49,925 nucleotides of DNA from contig JAJYUL010000026.1 in NCBI GenBank assembly GCA_021792555.1, positions 1 to 49,925 on the forward strand, read 5' to 3'. This document shows positions 470-8,252 of this stretch, in pieces (position 1 is the stretch's first letter; the number at the start of each line of letters is the position of its first letter). The stretch comes from Pseudomonadota bacterium (lineage in GTDB: Bacteria; Pseudomonadota; Gammaproteobacteria; Steroidobacterales; Steroidobacteraceae). A program made the position numbers and the translations under genes. The notes below the pieces were generated by a model. It worked only from the letters and a program-made list of their open reading frames with translations, was not told the DNA's origin and did no database searches.

Positions 470-895
470 TCAAGCTTCCCCGTGCTCAGAGAGCCATGCA
501 CTGGGTGTCACGGCGTTCGCCCGTCGAAGGAGCTCCTCATCCCATGAGATGATGAGTCCGTCTTCATCTGTGGCGACTGCCGCATAAAACGCGTCGCCAG
601 CGCGTAGAAAGGACTCGGTTCCCAGCGTCAGCGCCGTTCCCAGCAACGATCCGAGATCGATTTCGGTGATGAGCGGAGAGAGCAGGAGGCGGTCCGCCAG
701 GTCGCGACCCTGCCGGGCATCGCGCAGCCGGCGCGAGAGCGCGCAGGCGACCTCGAGCCTCGCGATGGCGGGAAGGGCGATAGGATCACGCTGGCGCATG
801 ACCGTGCGAAGAAACGTTCGGCTTGGGGCTGACAGTTTGTCGGCGGCGTCGGCTGCGGAGACCCAGACACTGGCGTCTACCACCAGTGCCGTCAC
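470..895 (-). CDS. PIN-domain toxin, VapC-like
   Basis: A 141-aa PIN-domain protein, expected to be a Mg-dependent ribonuclease toxin. The acidic residues of the family are in place: D7 in VVDASVWV, E48 in ARLEVACAL, D101 in AGDAFYAAVA, and D119 in SWDEELL. The length is normal for VapC. It overlaps the end of the upstream RHH-antitoxin gene by 4 nt (ATGA), the usual translational coupling of a toxin-antitoxin pair. Its RNA target cannot be told from sequence. The pair sits between the tRNA-Cys scar and an IS, which fits an island-maintenance or passenger role (inference). Confidence 0.88.
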   Translation of the reverse strand: MTALVVDASVWVSAADAADKLSAPSRTFLRTVMRQRDPIALPAIARLEVACALSRRLRDARQGRDLADRLLLSPLITEIDLGSLLGTALTLGTESFLRAGDAFYAAVATDEDGLIISWDEELLRRANAVTPSAWLSEHGEA

Positions 896-1173
896 TTCGG
901 CGTCCTTCGGTGATCCTGTCGGTTGCGGTCAGCCATCAGAATCTCGCGCGCGGAAGGTCCGCGAGGAGCGGCTCGCACGGCTTCGTCGGCCGCAGCGAGC
1001 CAGGAGTCCAGCCAAGGCTCGGCGGGAGGGGCCTCCGAATGCGGAGCTTCTTTTTCTCCCAGCCAGTGCTGGTACAGCTCCACGGTGATCTCGCGCACCG
1101 GCTTGCCGAGCAGGGCGCTCTTGGCCTTGACCTTGCGGTACAGAGCATCTGGGATATCGATGGTTGCTTTCAT
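892..1173 (-). CDS. ribbon-helix-helix antitoxin, VapB-like
   Basis: A 93-aa antitoxin. The N-terminal part (MKATIDIPDALYRKVKAKSA) has the beta-strand plus two helices of a ribbon-helix-helix DNA-binding domain; the C-terminal part rich in A, E, P and R should wrap and neutralise the PIN toxin encoded immediately downstream. The start was placed at the internal ATG (1173) because the RHH strand begins there; a longer frame to 1236 adds residues unlike the family. A short inverted repeat (ACAGC/GCTGT, 1175-1190) lies just upstream of the start and may be the autoregulatory operator. Confidence 0.8.
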   Translation of the reverse strand: MKATIDIPDALYRKVKAKSALLGKPVREITVELYQHWLGEKEAPHSEAPPAEPWLDSWLAAADEAVRAAPRGPSAREILMADRNRQDHRRTPK

Positions 1174-1174
1174 A

Positions 1175-1190
1175 ACAGCATGGTAGCTGT
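1175..1190. promoter_or_regulatory. possible vapBC operator palindrome
   Basis: ACAGC-ATGGTA-GCTGT inverted repeat directly in front of the antitoxin ATG (1173). RHH antitoxins normally bind short palindromes in their own promoter. Arms are only 5 bp, so chance is possible. Confidence 0.3.
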
Positions 1191-1256
1191 ATTGCCATAT
1201 TCCTGTCAATCCGGCTCTTGCGGGACTCTCGCCCAAGTCCTACCCAAGCGACGAAC

Positions 1257-2240
1257 TGGAGTTCCCAGGGTTTCGTGGACACGTGACTATTTCCGTTTGA
1301 CAGCATCCTCGTACGTCTCTGGGCTGACACCGTTCAGATAGCTGTGTCGGCGCGTTCGATTATAAAAGCATTCGATATAGTCTGAAACATCCGCCGTGGC
1401 CAATGCTCTGGTCTTGTAAATTTGCTTCTTGATTCGCTCCTTCTTGAGGCTACCAAAGAACGACTCGGCAACTGCATTGTCCCAGCAGTTTCCTCGCCGG
1501 CTCATACTTGGTTCCAGGCGGTTTGCGCGGCAAAATCGACGCCAATCGTCGCTCCCGTACTGGCATCCTTGATCTGAGTGGATCATCGTTCCACGCGGTC
1601 GGCGTTTGCGTACGGCCATCATTACGGCGTCCAACACCAACAGCCTGTGAATAGTTGGTCGAGTGGACCAGCCGACAATCTTCCGGGAGAATAGGTCCAT
1701 CACCACCGCCAGGTACAGCCAGCCTTCCCACGTGCGGATATAGGTAATATCCGTTACCCAGATCATGTTCGGTCGTGGTACGTCGAATCTCCGCTTTACG
1801 AGGTTCGGAATGAGGACTGAGGGCTTTCCAACCGAGTAATGACGCGTCCGGTATCCGTGCAGCGCCATGATCTTGTTGACGCGCATTATGCGTTCGACGC
1901 GATGTTTGCTGCACGTCTCACCTGCTTCACGCAGATCGAGAAGGATTCGGGGTGCGCCATAGATACCGTGACTGGCTTTGTACGACGCACGGATTAGACG
2001 AAGCAGCCGCGCATCCTCGAGGGCGCGGTCGGATACCGGCTTGTGCAGCCACTCGTAATACCCGCTCGGAGCTACACCCAAGATTCGGCACATCGTCTGA
2101 ACCGGGTATTCTCGCGCATGCGCCTTGATGAACTCGTAGGCACGTCGAGCGCGTGGATTTCGAGATGGCGTGGTCATTTTGACCCCTCCGGCGAACAGTT
2201 TCACCAGCTATAGGGTGTCCACGAAACCCTGGGAACTCCA
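1257..2240 (-). mobile_element. IS3-family element with orfB only, 26-bp perfect inverted repeats
   Basis: The ends 1257-1282 (starting TGGAGTTCCCAGGG) and 2215-2240 are perfect 26-bp inverted repeats and begin TG/end CA like IS3-family ends; the match continues 2 bp outside (AC/GT). The element is 984 bp and holds a single orfB-type transposase. IS3-family elements are normally about 1.2-1.5 kb with orfA and orfB; here only 37 nt separate the right repeat from the orfB start, so orfA is completely absent. I see no 3-4 bp target duplication (flanks GAAC and GTGC). Confidence 0.85.
1287..2177 (-). CDS. IS3-family transposase, OrfB (DDE integrase core)
   Basis: A 296-aa transposase. An N-terminal HTH-like segment (RRAYEFIKAH to SGYYEWL) is followed by the integrase core with catalytic D143 (WVTDITYI), D202 (IHSDQGCQY) and E238 (AVAESFFG), i.e. 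the DD(35)E spacing of the IS3 family. The start at ATG 2177 is chosen for its strong Shine-Dalgarno (GGAGGGG); an alternative start at 2204 adds nine residues. It is full length compared with other OrfB proteins and intact, but lacks a partner OrfA, which normally supplies the end-binding HTH-leucine zipper by programmed frameshift. It may depend on a relative elsewhere, or work alone. Confidence 0.9.
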   Translation of the reverse strand: MTTPSRNPRARRAYEFIKAHAREYPVQTMCRILGVAPSGYYEWLHKPVSDRALEDARLLRLIRASYKASHGIYGAPRILLDLREAGETCSKHRVERIMRVNKIMALHGYRTRHYSVGKPSVLIPNLVKRRFDVPRPNMIWVTDITYIRTWEGWLYLAVVMDLFSRKIVGWSTRPTIHRLLVLDAVMMAVRKRRPRGTMIHSDQGCQYGSDDWRRFCRANRLEPSMSRRGNCWDNAVAESFFGSLKKERIKKQIYKTRALATADVSDYIECFYNRTRRHSYLNGVSPETYEDAVKRK

Positions 2241-3852: not shown

Positions 3853-4455
3853 ATGATGGGCGCTCAATTGATCCAACTTCCGGCCTCGATCTTCGTGCCG
3901 CTCGGTCTGGCATTCTTCGGCCTGGGCACCGGATATCTCATATTCGGCCCGCAGGAGCTGCTCGGGTTTCCCGCGCGCGATGCGAACGTCGATCTTGCGA
4001 ACGGGGTGTGGGGCTTCTGGATGCCGGGATTCTGCCAGTTCGTCAACGGAATGCTTCTGCTGATCGGACTGAGCTGGTTTCCGGTCTTCAAAGGCTCGCC
4101 GCTCTATGCTGCCGGCATTATCACCTCGGTCTTCGGCATTCACTGGTTCGCAATGGGCTATATCCGCATGCGCGGTGGCGATCCACGTCCGGGCGGATTC
4201 ATGGCGATCGCCTTTTTCCTGGTCTCGCTGCTCGGCTTCATCGTGTTCCTGCGCGCGGGCGACTGGCCGGTGTGGCTGCTGTTCATCGGTCTGATGGCGA
4301 TCTATGTGGCGGACTTCTTCGTGAGCTTCGGGCGTGGATTGCCCGGCAGTCTCAAGACGATGGGATTGCTGCACACCGTCACCGGACTGTGGCTGATGTA
4401 CCTCACCTTCGCGATCGTGCTCAACCTCGCGAGCGGCATGCATTTGCCGTTGTGA
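3853..4455 (+). CDS. six-TM membrane protein, possibly AmiS/UreI or YaaH-like
   Basis: A 200-aa, very hydrophobic protein with about six transmembrane segments. The length, six-helix layout and the Gly/Gln/Asn pattern in the third segment (PGFCQFVNGMLLL, then FGIHWFAMGY) recall small channel/transporter families such as AmiS/UreI or GPR1/FUN34/YaaH acetate carriers, but I see no diagnostic motif, so the substrate is unknown. Ribosome site GAGGGG precedes ATG 3853 (a second ATG follows at 3856). It is convergent with the borosin-type operon; the two 3' ends share a hairpin at 4468-4492. A role in that pathway is not supported by orientation. Confidence 0.6.
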   Translation: MMGAQLIQLPASIFVPLGLAFFGLGTGYLIFGPQELLGFPARDANVDLANGVWGFWMPGFCQFVNGMLLLIGLSWFPVFKGSPLYAAGIITSVFGIHWFAMGYIRMRGGDPRPGGFMAIAFFLVSLLGFIVFLRAGDWPVWLLFIGLMAIYVADFFVSFGRGLPGSLKTMGLLHTVTGLWLMYLTFAIVLNLASGMHLPL

Positions 4456-4467
4456 TGCGCTGGAGTG

Positions 4468-4492
4468 GCGCCCCGGGGATGGATCGGGGCGC
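4468..4492. terminator. shared hairpin between convergent genes
   Basis: GCGCCCC (4468-4474) and GGGGCGC (4486-4492) form a 7-bp GC stem with an 11-nt loop. It lies between the stop of the plus-strand membrane gene (4455) and the stop of the minus-strand 48-codon peptide gene (4512), where a bidirectional terminator would be expected. Confidence 0.45.
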
Positions 4493-4511: not shown

Positions 4512-4658
4512 CTATATCACGACGACGACGATGATCTTCTCCCCGGGAAACGCGCACGTCTCATTCGCGCGGAGCACTTTGCCGTGCGGAACCTCGGTGT
4601 AGAGGATGCGGCCGAAGCGGCCGAGCGCAATGCCGGTCATGGTCTGTCGTGTGGGCAT
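4512..4658 (-). CDS. candidate borosin precursor peptide, 48 aa
   Basis: A 48-residue peptide starting MPTRQTMTGIALGRFGRIL and ending FPGEKIIVVVVI. The C-terminal Ile/Val run is the kind of core that borosin methyltransferases N-methylate on the backbone (compare the omphalotin core WVIVVGVIGVIG). The gene has a clear Shine-Dalgarno (GGAG, 7 nt before ATG 4658), lies 145 nt downstream of the borosin-type methyltransferase on the same strand, and is followed by a hairpin at 4468-4492. The leader is short and looks beta-rich, unlike the helical borosin-binding domain of SonA; one Cys and one His are present. Family membership is inferred from context and core composition; it could instead be an unrelated small protein. 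Too short for usual gene finders. Confidence 0.6.
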   Translation of the reverse strand: MPTRQTMTGIALGRFGRILYTEVPHGKVLRANETCAFPGEKIIVVVVI

Positions 4659-4803
4659 GAGAGTTCTCCGATGAGTGAACGCAGAGTGGAGCTCGGGAAA
4701 TCTGACTCTTGCGGTGCGGCCGGAGGTGATGTGGCCACGACCGGTTGCCGGGTGCGACGGGCAGGGGACGCCGGGTGGGATTTGCGGGCCATGTGCGTCC
4801 CTC

Positions 4804-5706
4804 TCAGGCGGGGGCGCTGCCGTGGGGCGAGGGAGATCCCGTCACCCAGCCGGGTTTTTCCGGATGAGTGAGGCCATAGGCCTGGCCGGGAATGCGGCCG
4901 CTGCCCTGGCGACGCGAGAGCGACAGGTCCGTCAGGCGCACGCCGAGCAGTTCGGCCCGGTACGGGTCTGGGTCGGCGCGCATCGCGGGCGGGATGTACA
5001 GGGTGCTCAGCGCATTGATGTCCTGGCGCGCCAGCTCGCAGAGCGGAAACACATGGATGACCGGGGCCACGTTCTCGTATGCGGAGGCCTGGTACACGAC
5101 CGCATCGTGATCCGACGGGTAAGTCTGCAGCAGCGTATCGGTGAGGGCTTCAAGGTTTTTGCGTGAAGGCGTCGGTTCGGGGGTGAGAAGCCCGACGACG
5201 CCGATTTGCCAGAGAATCAAGGGAATCCGCGCATCGATGGCAGGTTTCAGCAGCACAAAGCCGGTTGCTTCGTAGGTCTGCAGGCCGGGCAGCGCCGGAT
5301 CGAAGCCGAGGTCGGCGAACAGCATGTCCTCGGCGGAGATGCCCGGCAGCATCTTCGCCTCATGTCCCTCCCGGCGGGCCTGGACGACGGCCTCGTGAGA
5401 CGGATACACGAACACGCCGGGATGGCCGTAAAAGGCGGCGCATACGCTCAATCCCTTGCGCACCGGCGCGAGTATCGCCTCGACCATATCCTGGTACGCC
5501 CAGAGACGCGGCTTGCCGGTTCCCGGTTCGTAGTGGCGCTTGAGACACTCGGCGGACGCGTTGAGCTGCTTCAGGAACGTCTCGGTATGCGCGTCCGTCA
5601 CGAGGTAGTACACCTTGTCCGCGGTGAAGAGGCAATGTTCGGCCTCACGCGTCAGCTGGCTGATGGCGGTCATCCCGGTGCCGACCACGGTCAGTTTTCC
5701 GTTCAT
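4804..5706 (-). CDS. borosin-type alpha-N-methyltransferase (tetrapyrrole methylase fold)
   Basis: A 300-aa SAM-dependent methyltransferase. Features shared with OphMA/SonM borosin enzymes rather than cobalamin-pathway methylases: VVGTG (7-11), Q17-L-T, the block with Y59, R67 and Y71 that aligns with OphMA Y66, R72 and Y76, the SAM-site motif YGHPGVFVYPSH (93-104), MLPGISAEDMLFADLG (119-134), LILWQIG (163-169) and TLYIPP (235-240). The OphMA Y63 position appears to be a Lys here. The protein stops without a hydrophobic core, so the substrate must be separate (split type); the 48-aa peptide gene downstream is the obvious candidate. Start ATG 5706 has GAGG five nt upstream. The activity predicted is iterative backbone N-methylation of a peptide. 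Confidence 0.88.
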   Translation of the reverse strand: MNGKLTVVGTGMTAISQLTREAEHCLFTADKVYYLVTDAHTETFLKQLNASAECLKRHYEPGTGKPRLWAYQDMVEAILAPVRKGLSVCAAFYGHPGVFVYPSHEAVVQARREGHEAKMLPGISAEDMLFADLGFDPALPGLQTYEATGFVLLKPAIDARIPLILWQIGVVGLLTPEPTPSRKNLEALTDTLLQTYPSDHDAVVYQASAYENVAPVIHVFPLCELARQDINALSTLYIPPAMRADPDPYRAELLGVRLTDLSLSRRQGSGRIPGQAYGLTHPEKPGWVTGSPSPHGSAPA

Positions 5707-6338
5707 GGCGACCTCGTGTTTTTTCGGTGGCGGGCAGGCAATCGAAGGTGCGTTCGACGATCGTTTCAGCGTCGGGTCTGCCGGAGCAGGTGCGACGGAG
5801 CCTCGGTCGCCCTCAGGGCGGCGCCAGTGTTCTGTGCGCAGTCACCCTCTGCGCTCCGGAACATCCGGTCTGCGGTCTTGTCAGCGTAGGGCGCATGTCT
5901 GAGTTCGTGCTCGGGTGGCGGCGGTTCGGCGGATCGTCATGACGGGTGCACGGAAGGGTTGGATCGCGTGCGATGTTGCCGATGGCCCGATCCGCTCCTA
6001 CACTGGAGTCGGAAACATTTCAGCGTCGAGGGGACAGATTCGCGCCGGTCGTCTTGACGGCTTGGGGGAGCAGGGGATGTCGCGCTGCACGGTGATCGCG
6101 TGGCGCCGCGGGCAGCAATTATTGTAGCGACAGACGAGACCATGGAGCTATGAAACGCTCGCGGCCGTAGGACGGGAAGAGGGGAACAACGAATTCGTCC
6201 CTCTCTTCAGCGGTTTCGTCCCAGCAGGGGCGCAGTGGCGTGGCCGAAGCGCAAGAATGAGCGTATCGCGAGGCGGTGTGGCCGGGTTGATGCGTCGCAG
6301 TGCGCTCCCGAAGCCGCCGGATGGAAGGGGGAAGCGGT
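5707..6338. other. 632-bp intergenic region between divergent units
   Basis: It separates the minus-strand borosin-type gene from the plus-strand sensor kinase and must contain both promoters. I found no convincing gene, RNA or strong repeat; frames here are arginine-rich shadows. No second precursor-like peptide was seen. Confidence 0.4.
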
Positions 6339-7451
6339 ATGAACAGCCGTATGCGCGTGCCGGTGCTCATCGTGACGGCCTTCTGGGCATATGTCTCGGC
6401 GTCCGCCATTCTGTATGCCAAAAGCGTGCAGGATCTGCTCGGCGCGCTGCACGCGGCGGACTTCCTGGCGCCCTGGAAGGCGCAGGCGTTGCAGCACGCT
6501 TTGCTCTATCCGGTGCTGCTCGGCTGCGCATGGGTGTCACGACGCATCGGATGGCAGCCGTTCGCACGGCGCTTCGCGCTGCAGACCCTGCTCGGGCTCG
6601 CGTTTGCCGGCATCGCCGTGCCGTGTCTGGCGCTGGCCGATGCGATCACCGGGAATCTGGCTGCGGCGCCGCATGTGCCGGTCTCCTCGGTCGGACAGGC
6701 GATCGCAGTGGAGGCGCCGGCGCTGCTTTCGAGCGTGATGCGGTTCCTGCTCAGCTACGCCTTTGCGATGGCGCTGGTGACCGGCTTCGAGCTGTATCGC
6801 AAGCTGCGCGATTCGGAGATGCATTCCGCCTCGCTCGCCCGTGAGCTGGCCACCGCAAGGCTCGCCACGCTGCGGATGCAGCTCTCGCCGCATTCACTCT
6901 TCAATCTCCTGCACACGATCCACGGGCAGATCGAGTGGGATCCGGAGGCGGCGCGCGCCCTCGTGATCCGGTTCGGGGATTTTCTGCGCCGCCTGCTCAA
7001 GGCCAGCGAGCGGGAGTTCTGGCGGCTGGCCGAGGAGATCGAGTTCGCCCGTCTGTACCTCGAGCTGCAGCAGAAGCGCTTCGCCGACCGCCTGACGGTC
7101 AGTGTGCGCGAGGAGGAGGCCTCCGCGGCGGTGTGGGTGCCGAGCCTGATCCTCCAGCCGCTGGTGGAGAACGCCGTCGTGCACGGCCTCGCGGGCCACC
7201 ATGGGCCGGTGTCCGTGAGCGTTGCGGCGGTGAGCGCCGGTGGCGTTCTGACGCTGCGGGTCAGCAACACCATGAGCGGGAACGGCCGGCGCGCAGCCGA
7301 CGGCATTGGATTGAAGAACGTGCGCGACCGGCTCGAGATTCACTTCGGCGCGGCGGCATCCGTGCGCGCGGCGCCCGGCGCCTCGGGAGAATGGGTCGGT
7401 GAGATCCGCCTTCCCCGGCTGCCCGACGTGCGGGTTCCCTCGGTCAGTTAG
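6339..7451 (+). CDS. LytS/AlgZ-type sensor histidine kinase
   Basis: A 370-aa membrane sensor kinase. Four hydrophobic segments cover roughly residues 8-25, 50-68, 80-105 and 125-150; then comes the His_kinase domain with phospho-acceptor H185 in LRMQLSPHSLFNLL, the N-box LVENAVVHG (N278), and an ATPase G-box near GIGLKNVRDRL. The start at ATG 6339 follows GGAAGGGGGA; a longer frame from 6300 is less likely. The LytTR response regulator is 12 nt downstream, so the two form a phosphorelay pair. The signal is unknown. Confidence 0.9.
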   Translation: MNSRMRVPVLIVTAFWAYVSASAILYAKSVQDLLGALHAADFLAPWKAQALQHALLYPVLLGCAWVSRRIGWQPFARRFALQTLLGLAFAGIAVPCLALADAITGNLAAAPHVPVSSVGQAIAVEAPALLSSVMRFLLSYAFAMALVTGFELYRKLRDSEMHSASLARELATARLATLRMQLSPHSLFNLLHTIHGQIEWDPEAARALVIRFGDFLRRLLKASEREFWRLAEEIEFARLYLELQQKRFADRLTVSVREEEASAAVWVPSLILQPLVENAVVHGLAGHHGPVSVSVAAVSAGGVLTLRVSNTMSGNGRRAADGIGLKNVRDRLEIHFGAAASVRAAPGASGEWVGEIRLPRLPDVRVPSVS

Positions 7452-7463
7452 GGAGGTCAGAGG

Positions 7464-8252
7464 ATGCTCGAGGTGGTTCTGGTAGACGATGAGGCGGCTG
7501 CGCGCCGTGTTCTGCGCGAGTATTGCGCGCTGGAGCCGGATCTGAAGGTCGTGGGCGAGTACGGCGACGGGCGGACGGCCTTGGAGGCAATCCGCACACA
7601 CGTGCCGCACGTGCTGCTGCTTGACGTCAAGATGGAATCGCTGGACGGGATCGAGCTCGTTCGCTCGCTCGATGTGCGCACGCTGCCGTTGATCGTGTTT
7701 GTCACCGCCTATGATCATTATGCGCTCGAGGCGTTCGAGCTGAGCGCAGTGGATTATCTGCTCAAGCCGTTCGATCGGGAGCGGTTCCGGCACACCATCG
7801 ATCGTGTGCGACGACGGGTGGCGGCCGAGACGGCTGCGCAGCGGCGTGAGGTGCTGGAGGCACTGCTCGAGCGCATCGAGCGGGCGCAGCACGCGCGTAT
7901 CGATGCGATACCGCGCATTCTGGTGGGAACGGGCAGCGAACAAAGCATGCTGGACGTCGAACTGATTGAGCTCGCGACGGCAGAGCGCAATTACGTCCAG
8001 CTGACGGTGGGCCGCAAGACGTTTCCGGTGCGCGGCACGCTTCAGCAGACCGAGAAGACCCTGCAGGTGCTGCCGATTCTGCGCATCAGCCGCTCGCGTC
8101 TGGTGAACATGAACCATGTGCGCAGCGTCAGCCGCACGCCGCGGGGCGATTTCATTCTGGTGCTGGCGGGCGGCACGACCGTCACGAGCAGCGAGGGTTT
8201 CCGCGAGTCGGTCCGCCGGCACCTCGATCGCTTCCGCCTGCCGCCGGGCTGA
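7464..8252 (+). CDS. LytTR-family response regulator
   Basis: A 262-aa regulator. Receiver domain 1-120 with acidic pair D8/D9, phospho-acceptor D54 in LLLDVK, the conserved Thr in VFVTAYD and Lys in LLKPFD; then a LytTR DNA-binding domain from about residue 155 (ELATAERNYVQLTV to ISRSRLVNMNHV). It is the partner of the kinase encoded 12 nt upstream (AlgZ/AlgR or LytS/LytR-like). Targets are not evident; the downstream genes are on the opposite strand. Confidence 0.92.
   Translation: MLEVVLVDDEAAARRVLREYCALEPDLKVVGEYGDGRTALEAIRTHVPHVLLLDVKMESLDGIELVRSLDVRTLPLIVFVTAYDHYALEAFELSAVDYLLKPFDRERFRHTIDRVRRRVAAETAAQRREVLEALLERIERAQHARIDAIPRILVGTGSEQSMLDVELIELATAERNYVQLTVGRKTFPVRGTLQQTEKTLQVLPILRISRSRLVNMNHVRSVSRTPRGDFILVLAGGTTVTSSEGFRESVRRHLDRFRLPPG

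Follow-up and report, generated by a model that had tools for sequence, protein, structure and literature searches.

The two-gene locus described here probably encodes a split borosin pathway, consisting of a borosin-type alpha-N-methyltransferase and a separate 48 aa precursor peptide; we put the probability of this reading at about 0.82. The locus lies in the window, the whole stretch of DNA that was analysed (49,925 bases), which is the entire contig C42 of a genome rated 99.2% complete. The enzyme very probably N-methylates the backbone of the separately encoded peptide, and the best reading of the sequences is the "Class 4" arrangement, a split borosin that appears to lack a SonA-type binding domain. 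Homology of the enzyme, co-occurrence of the two genes, coding constraint on the peptide and conservation of a direct repeat were all observed. The coordinates are collected in Table 1.

Table 1. Features of the borosin locus and its divergent neighbours (window coordinates)
Feature	Position	Strand	Basis
Alpha-N-methyltransferase, borosin-type, 300 aa	4804..5706	-	PDB matches, active-site residues, Foldseek
Enzyme C-terminal extension, about residues 263-300, ..PG.AYG.T.PE...WV conserved	4807..4920	-	Enzyme alignment
Predicted precursor peptide gene, 48 aa, end ...FPGEKIIVVVVI	4512..4658	-	Homologues, dN/dS
Predicted core KIIVVVVI, residues 41-48	4515..4538	-	I/V/L at even positions, 10/10 rows
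GGAG ribosome-binding site of the peptide gene	4666..4669	-	9/10 rows
GC-rich hairpin, 8-bp stem, 3' of the peptide gene, no T-run	4468..4492	-	
Direct repeat GGGACGAA-N13-GGGACGAA, candidate LytTR-type operator	6194..6222	-	Single window match
TTTCATA, putative -10 region with conserved TCATA	6149..6155	-	10 enzyme-side sites
Histidine kinase, PF06580, divergent from the enzyme	6351..7451	+	Homologues, kinase tree
Response regulator, LytTR DNA-binding domain	7464..8252	+	Pfam; adjoins the kinase in 10/10 genomes

The Methyltransferase

A sequence search of the PDB (E 0.1 or better) returned 25 matches, every one a borosin enzyme (dbOphM, OphMA, MroM or SonM), with E values of 1.4e-51 for dbOphM, 1.5e-50 for OphMA, 8e-47 for MroMA and 2.2e-46 for SonM, and a range to 1e-45. 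The initial annotation had read the motifs YGHPGVF, MLPGISAED and TLYIPP in a 300 aa enzyme and equated Y59, R67 and Y71 with active-site residues of OphMA. All three motifs are present, both ORFs lie at the coordinates it had given (on the minus strand, which it had not named), and the three residues align to the Tyr/Arg/Tyr of OphMA and dbOphM. None of Y59, R67, Y71 and Y93 varies among the 23 aligned enzymes, and the catalytic Tyr/Arg/Tyr set of the OphMA/SonM-type alpha-N-methyltransferases is present. In SonM, the Y58F, R67K, Y71F and Y93F mutations lower kcat/KM for SonA by 14-, 97-, 98- and 1.6-fold, respectively (PMC8429565).

The AF2 model of the enzyme has a mean pLDDT of 79.7, with residues 264-300 below 50. 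In a Foldseek search with this model the best 50 of 1,066 matches are all borosin enzymes, and SonM superimposes with an rmsd of 2.0 A at 38% identity. Sequence and predicted fold thus place the enzyme with OphMA and SonM and not, as would have refuted the initial annotation, with the cobalamin/diphthine methylases. The end of the enzyme is variable and polar and carries no hydrophobic run, which bears out the view that no core is built in and disposes of a core fused to the enzyme tail, as in the fused borosin types I-III. In the 23-row enzyme alignment a conserved extension of ~40 residues occurs in the nine clade members and is absent from the 14 other rows; it possibly helps hold the precursor.

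The Precursor Peptide

The downstream gene of 48 codons proposed by the initial annotation has its own GGAG 7 nt 5' of the ATG; the one row of ten without GGAG (L007) has AAGGAC. The gap between the enzyme and peptide genes is 145 nt in the window and 100-145 nt across the ten rows. There are ten peptide homologues, one per genome, each 48 aa long and aligned without gaps, and the Ile/Val run noted at the C-terminus of the window peptide is kept in all of them as an I/V/L-rich end. Every row has I, V or L at residues 42, 44 and 46, and some have S or T at 43 and 45, so that a predicted hydrophobic C-terminal core is present in the genetically linked peptide in 10/10 rows.

This ORF is unlikely to be a chance one, on three counts: of the 624 window ORFs of at least 20 aa it is the only one with at least six V/I/L among its last eight residues, it has ten homologues, and dN/dS is low. 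The ratio is 0.15-0.43 in eight of the nine pairs with at least 82% nucleotide identity, which points to purifying selection in those eight; in the ninth (L006/L009) dN exceeds dS (0.064 and 0.040) on eight differences. dN exceeds dS also in five distant pairs that involve L007, window/L007 included, four of them saturated.

Pfam gave no match to any of the ten peptide homologues, and the peptide profile matched no PDB chain up to E 10; as a control, the SonA-like precursor of L016 finds SonA in the PDB at E 0.0038. The borosin-binding domain that marks type IV split borosin precursors was not found by sequence, the fold model being of low confidence (pLDDT 67), and no fold was taken from it. 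PADLOC reported nothing for enzyme or peptide, and no protease or exporter was identified next to the pair.

The hairpin reported 3' of the peptide gene exists as a GC-rich 8-bp stem but, lacking a T-run, is not a canonical terminator. The 60 nt that follow the peptide gene fold with -28 kcal/mol; GC-rich folds occur also 3' of the peptide ORF in the other nine rows, with no evidently common stem. Convergent to the peptide gene (window 3853-4455, plus strand) is a gene for a hydrophobic 200 aa protein with no Pfam/NCBIfam match, and none like it was found beside the enzyme-peptide pair in the other loci searched. Farther off (470-2204, minus strand) lie ORFs resembling a PIN-domain toxin-antitoxin pair and an IS3-type transposase.

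Distribution and Wider Relatives

Among 58 genomes of the genus, the peptide profile matched ten, with a single match in each. Thirteen genomes have the enzyme. Ten are those with the peptide, each enzyme being at least 72% identical; the other three, G010, G077 and G079, have enzymes of 38-41% identity and no peptide. The small ORF that the initial annotation expected near homologous enzymes is thus kept: in each of the ten genomes whose enzyme is at or above 72%, a homologous, ungapped 48 aa ORF lies 3' of the enzyme gene, and the gene order is constant. In G024 the enzyme is divided between two contigs, of which L060 carries the other half and ends before the kinase and regulator. Run against 369 genomes of the class, the peptide profile matched the genome of the window itself; the sole other match (G141, E 8.4e-4) was partial, covering residues 11-33 within a 612 aa frame, and was taken as chance.

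The nearest enzyme beyond the genus (48%) is in an Acidobacteriaceae MAG (L011). In the order, 22 of 396 genomes matched at 1e-20, and the closest enzyme outside the genus is 44% identical (G057). Enzymes at 32-48% identity are without the 48 aa ORF, and most adjoin larger precursor-like ORFs, which were judged by eye or by SonA-like alignment, L016 excepted; this tells against too simple a version of the initial interpretation. A SonA-like ORF of 74-92 aa lies 3' of the enzyme in the gammaproteobacterial loci L013, L016, L018 and L020. Precursor-like ORFs stand before the enzyme in L012 (94 aa), L014 (285 aa, repetitive), L015 (309 aa, repetitive) and G057; a repetitive 179 aa ORF follows it in L017, and ORFs with acidic stretches follow it in G010, G077 and G079. 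No precursor was identified at the L011, L021 and L022 enzyme loci.

The long repeat-built ORFs beside borosin-type enzymes (L014:3526-3928, L015 upstream of 4001, L017 after 4885) have the units QILPQIHPQQIFPQVAP, VVYAAGA and AADAAIIKGYAP, and their sequences suggest that each chain may hold many cores. Elsewhere in the family, a second genus has ten genomes (G354, G622, G626, G641, G673, G733, G734, G737, G765 and G773) with a borosin-type enzyme at 35-42% identity. Among 72,556 plasmid records the enzyme matched 21, every one below 60% identity, and it matched none of 50,697 phage records; location on mobile DNA was accordingly rejected.

The Two-Component Pair and the Direct Repeat

In all ten pair-bearing genomes, genes for a histidine kinase and a LytTR regulator lie next to the enzyme gene and divergent from it (in G008 the regulator is cut by the contig end). 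The regulator has a receiver domain (PF00072, 5.5e-22) and a LytTR domain (PF04397, 9.9e-15), as in LytTR two-component systems. In a kinase tree of 36 rows (46 loci with 10 duplicates removed; the G029 fragment and unfetched second copies, e.g. G000:C8, not included), the ten enzyme-side kinases form one group, supported 100/100, that excludes the 26 other kinases from the genus. The enzyme-side label requires one change on this tree, and none of 500 shuffles was as low. In G029 a contig (L126, G029:C203, 3-1340) starts inside a kinase 91% identical to that of the window, followed by a 95% identical regulator; no enzyme match was found in G029, and its absence may be an assembly gap.

A search of the window with up to two mismatches found the direct repeat once (0.04 expected). 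The repeat, with a 21-bp period, is present in exact form in the enzyme-kinase gap of all ten genomes, with none in the reversed control. Genus-wide, 13 of the 58 genomes hold exact GGGACGAA-N13-GGGACGA, at 19 places in total (reversed control 0): ten are in the enzyme-kinase gap, six rows (five loci) are at a lasso peptide cluster and three are elsewhere. The six lasso-side rows fall in five pair-bearing genomes; a sixth locus has one mismatch. The remaining three are in pair-less genomes, upstream of other family kinases in G072 and G078 and ~3 kb away in G061, so the exact repeat is not RiPP-specific in the genus. A matrix search added repeats upstream of family kinases in G079 and G080 at ~26 bits, against a maximum of 7.6 in 20 shuffles of 44 kb.

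All ten enzyme-side sites have a TCATA beyond the repeat, at a distance of 34 nt in nine rows and 33 nt in the window. A small ORF starting from a conserved ATGG after the repeat was considered and dropped: by eye, the predicted proteins differ among genomes, and L124 keeps GTGTCTCATA without the ATGG. At L122, L123 and L124, family kinases with a similar repeat have a divergent UrcA family gene at the enzyme's place. It is as if the enzyme-peptide pair took over a regulated promoter. Taken as a whole, a regulatory role of the kinase and LytTR regulator at the borosin locus is likely.

A Lasso Peptide Cluster with the Same Repeat

The second locus encodes a lasso B2 protein (NF033537, 70.6 bits with a cut-off of 33), an Asn-synthase-like cyclase (PF00733, PF13471), an ABC exporter and a companion protein of ~340-385 aa. 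The cyclase is under the NCBIfam lasso cyclase cut-off (33.5 versus 525). As a rule, lasso precursors carry Gly1 and Glu8. By pattern search, short precursors, e.g. MQYLGNVSTETKG-IVGQYPEG..., were found in eight loci, Glu occupying position 8 after the TxG glycine in all eight; L116, L158 and L161 gave no match to the pattern. B2 protein, cyclase and precursor are thus all represented in the sister genomes. The companion protein, encoded just 5' of the exporter (L117:6006-7160, L116:570-1586), matches the DnaA C-terminal domain (PF08299) only below the threshold and is an unusual partner for an exporter. In the window's own genome, two lasso B/C pairs flank the exporter and companion genes (L157, G000:C19, 2774-11559); they are 47% and about 28-31% identical to the query, and the precursor is MTMTYHGSVSYDTKG-IDTQQTESLGVPGYQF.

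The repeat is directed at lasso genes in L118, L120 and L158, and at the companion-exporter genes in L116, L117 and L119. Three of these six lasso-side sites have TTGACA 9 nt past the repeat and three lack it within 80 nt, so a TTGACA-N17 promoter at the lasso cluster fails on these counts.

All other exact repeats in pair-bearing genomes being at lasso clusters suggests that the borosin and lasso clusters are under joint control. Seven of the ten pair-bearing genomes, as against 3 of the 48 without the pair, have a lasso cyclase of at least 40% identity (Fisher p 4e-5, the 40% line having been set after the list was seen, with a query from a pair-bearing genome and kinship uncorrected); when all cyclase matches at E 1e-30 are counted, the figures are 8/10 and 19/48. 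Completeness is 70, 75 and 87% for the three pair-bearing genomes without such a cyclase. Of the seven that have it, six carry the repeat at the lasso cluster (G020 with one mismatch) and the window's own genome does not; of the pair-less genomes, neither of the two testable clusters (L159, L160) has it, L161 being cut at the contig start.

The lasso-side repeat could also be a by-product of a family of kinase-regulator pairs, which commonly act on their own divergent promoter, with no function joint with the borosin. The repeats upstream of other family kinases (exact in G072 and G078, by matrix in G079 and G080) speak for this, as do the divergent UrcA family gene at three of these four kinase-side sites (the fourth being cut by the contig end) and the lasso cluster of the window's genome, in which no repeat was found (best matrix score 0.3). 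Against it, all 16 exact rows in the ten pair-bearing genomes are at the borosin or the lasso locus, and the pair-less lasso clusters that could be compared do not have the repeat. We regard the by-product as possible, on the less likely side, and lean modestly towards a functional lasso link.

The repeat common to the two loci bears as well on where the substrate is encoded. If the enzyme is a real borosin enzyme and the 48 aa peptide a partner or regulator, the substrate would be encoded elsewhere, e.g. by the repeat-sharing lasso precursor, and the peptide does have neither a known domain nor a recognisable binding domain. Yet its hydrophobic end and the gene order are kept throughout, the lasso precursors of pair-bearing genomes are without such a hydrophobic run, and three of these genomes lack the 40% cyclase, though they are only 70-87% complete. 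A SonA-like precursor profile gave weak matches in six of the ten pair-bearing genomes; the seven places opened (an eighth, G067:C152, was left out) are open frames of 114-182 residues, which look LigA-like to us, and none is a SonA-like precursor. This absence is not firm, since the profile was weak on controls: it found the G057 precursor (its own row) and the ORF beside the G042 enzyme, and missed those that adjoin the G010, G077 and G079 enzymes. A substrate encoded elsewhere is on balance very unlikely.

The chance is negligible that the enzyme is an ordinary tetrapyrrole methylase of the cobalamin, YabN or diphthine type with a spurious peptide ORF beside it, as Pfam's assignment to TP_methylase (3.1e-17) and four weak NCBIfam matches (YabN, CobJ and CobI models) might suggest, for these four are all far under their cut-offs (best 50.5 against 525), the PDB matches and the best 50 Foldseek matches are borosin enzymes, the active-site residues are retained, and the peptide ORF is conserved and constrained.

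Proposed Pathway

In the split borosin pathway that we favour, the backbone amides that the SAM-dependent methyltransferase would N-methylate are those of the peptide's C-terminal I/V/L run, the first 40 residues of the peptide serving as leader. Because a SonA-type binding domain is not recognisable, recognition must rest on the short leader, perhaps with the aid of the enzyme's conserved C-terminal extension. SonA is methylated at L63 and I65 (PMC8429565), i.e. at every second residue, and by analogy residues 42, 44 and 46 are the predicted, likely methylation sites. The divergent kinase and LytTR regulator probably control the operon via the 21-bp-period repeat, and in sister species the same regulator may also govern the lasso cluster with its ABC exporter operon. 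The product may also be exported.

A more elaborate version, which we think quite unlikely, makes the N-methylated borosin the signal for its own kinase, the LytTR regulator then inducing both the borosin and the lasso peptide; export would perhaps be by the ABC exporter whose operon has the repeat in three sister genomes. If true, the circuit would be a Gram-negative counterpart of the Gram-positive pheromone-kinase-LytTR bacteriocin circuits, with a backbone-methylated pheromone.

The roles of borosins in bacteria are mostly open. The dedicated two-component pair, together with the repeat shared with a lasso cluster, allows direct study of the conditions under which a bacterial borosin is produced and of what is produced along with it. 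The pair itself, 300 + 48 aa with no recognisable binding domain, is a very small natural borosin pair and is useful for studying how such enzymes recognize their substrates and for the production of N-methylated peptides. The number of mature borosin compounds identified is small (PMC11395268).

Comparison with Known Systems

Split borosins, types 0-XI and a Class 4 without the binding domain (BBD-less) have already been described (PMC8429565, PMC11395268, PMC11285071), and the locus is very probably a genuine split borosin locus that follows this known general arrangement. The precursor family, the enzyme extension and the regulatory link were not found described in the literature examined, and no borosin under two-component control was found in the literature searched.

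As in SonM/SonA, the type IV split system of Shewanella oneidensis (PMC8429565), the enzyme and precursor genes are separate and adjoining, the active-site residues are the same, and the hydrophobic core is near the C-terminus of the precursor. Unlike SonA, the precursor is 48 aa long instead of about 71-75, its predicted core reaches the last residue, and the peptide has no match to the five-helix binding domain (residues 1-53); unlike the SonM-like rows of the alignment, the enzyme has the C-terminal extension. Class 4, by its description in a figure legend (PMC11395268, Figure 1), likewise has separate enzyme and core proteins and no binding domain. With OphMA and dbOphMA the enzyme shares the methyltransferase fold and residues (E about 1e-50), but in contrast to these fused borosins the core is not fused, the enzyme tail being variable and without a hydrophobic run.

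On the regulatory side, the pair resembles AlgZ/AlgR of Pseudomonas in its LytTR regulator, and the reverse complement of the repeat contains GTTCGTC, the core of the AlgR box CCGTTCGTC (PMC4064291). LytTR sites are described in that paper as two direct repeats about 12 bp apart, AlgR's own sites not necessarily being direct repeats. The candidate operator here, judged by its sequence, follows the pattern of the other LytTR sites, with two direct repeats at about that spacing.
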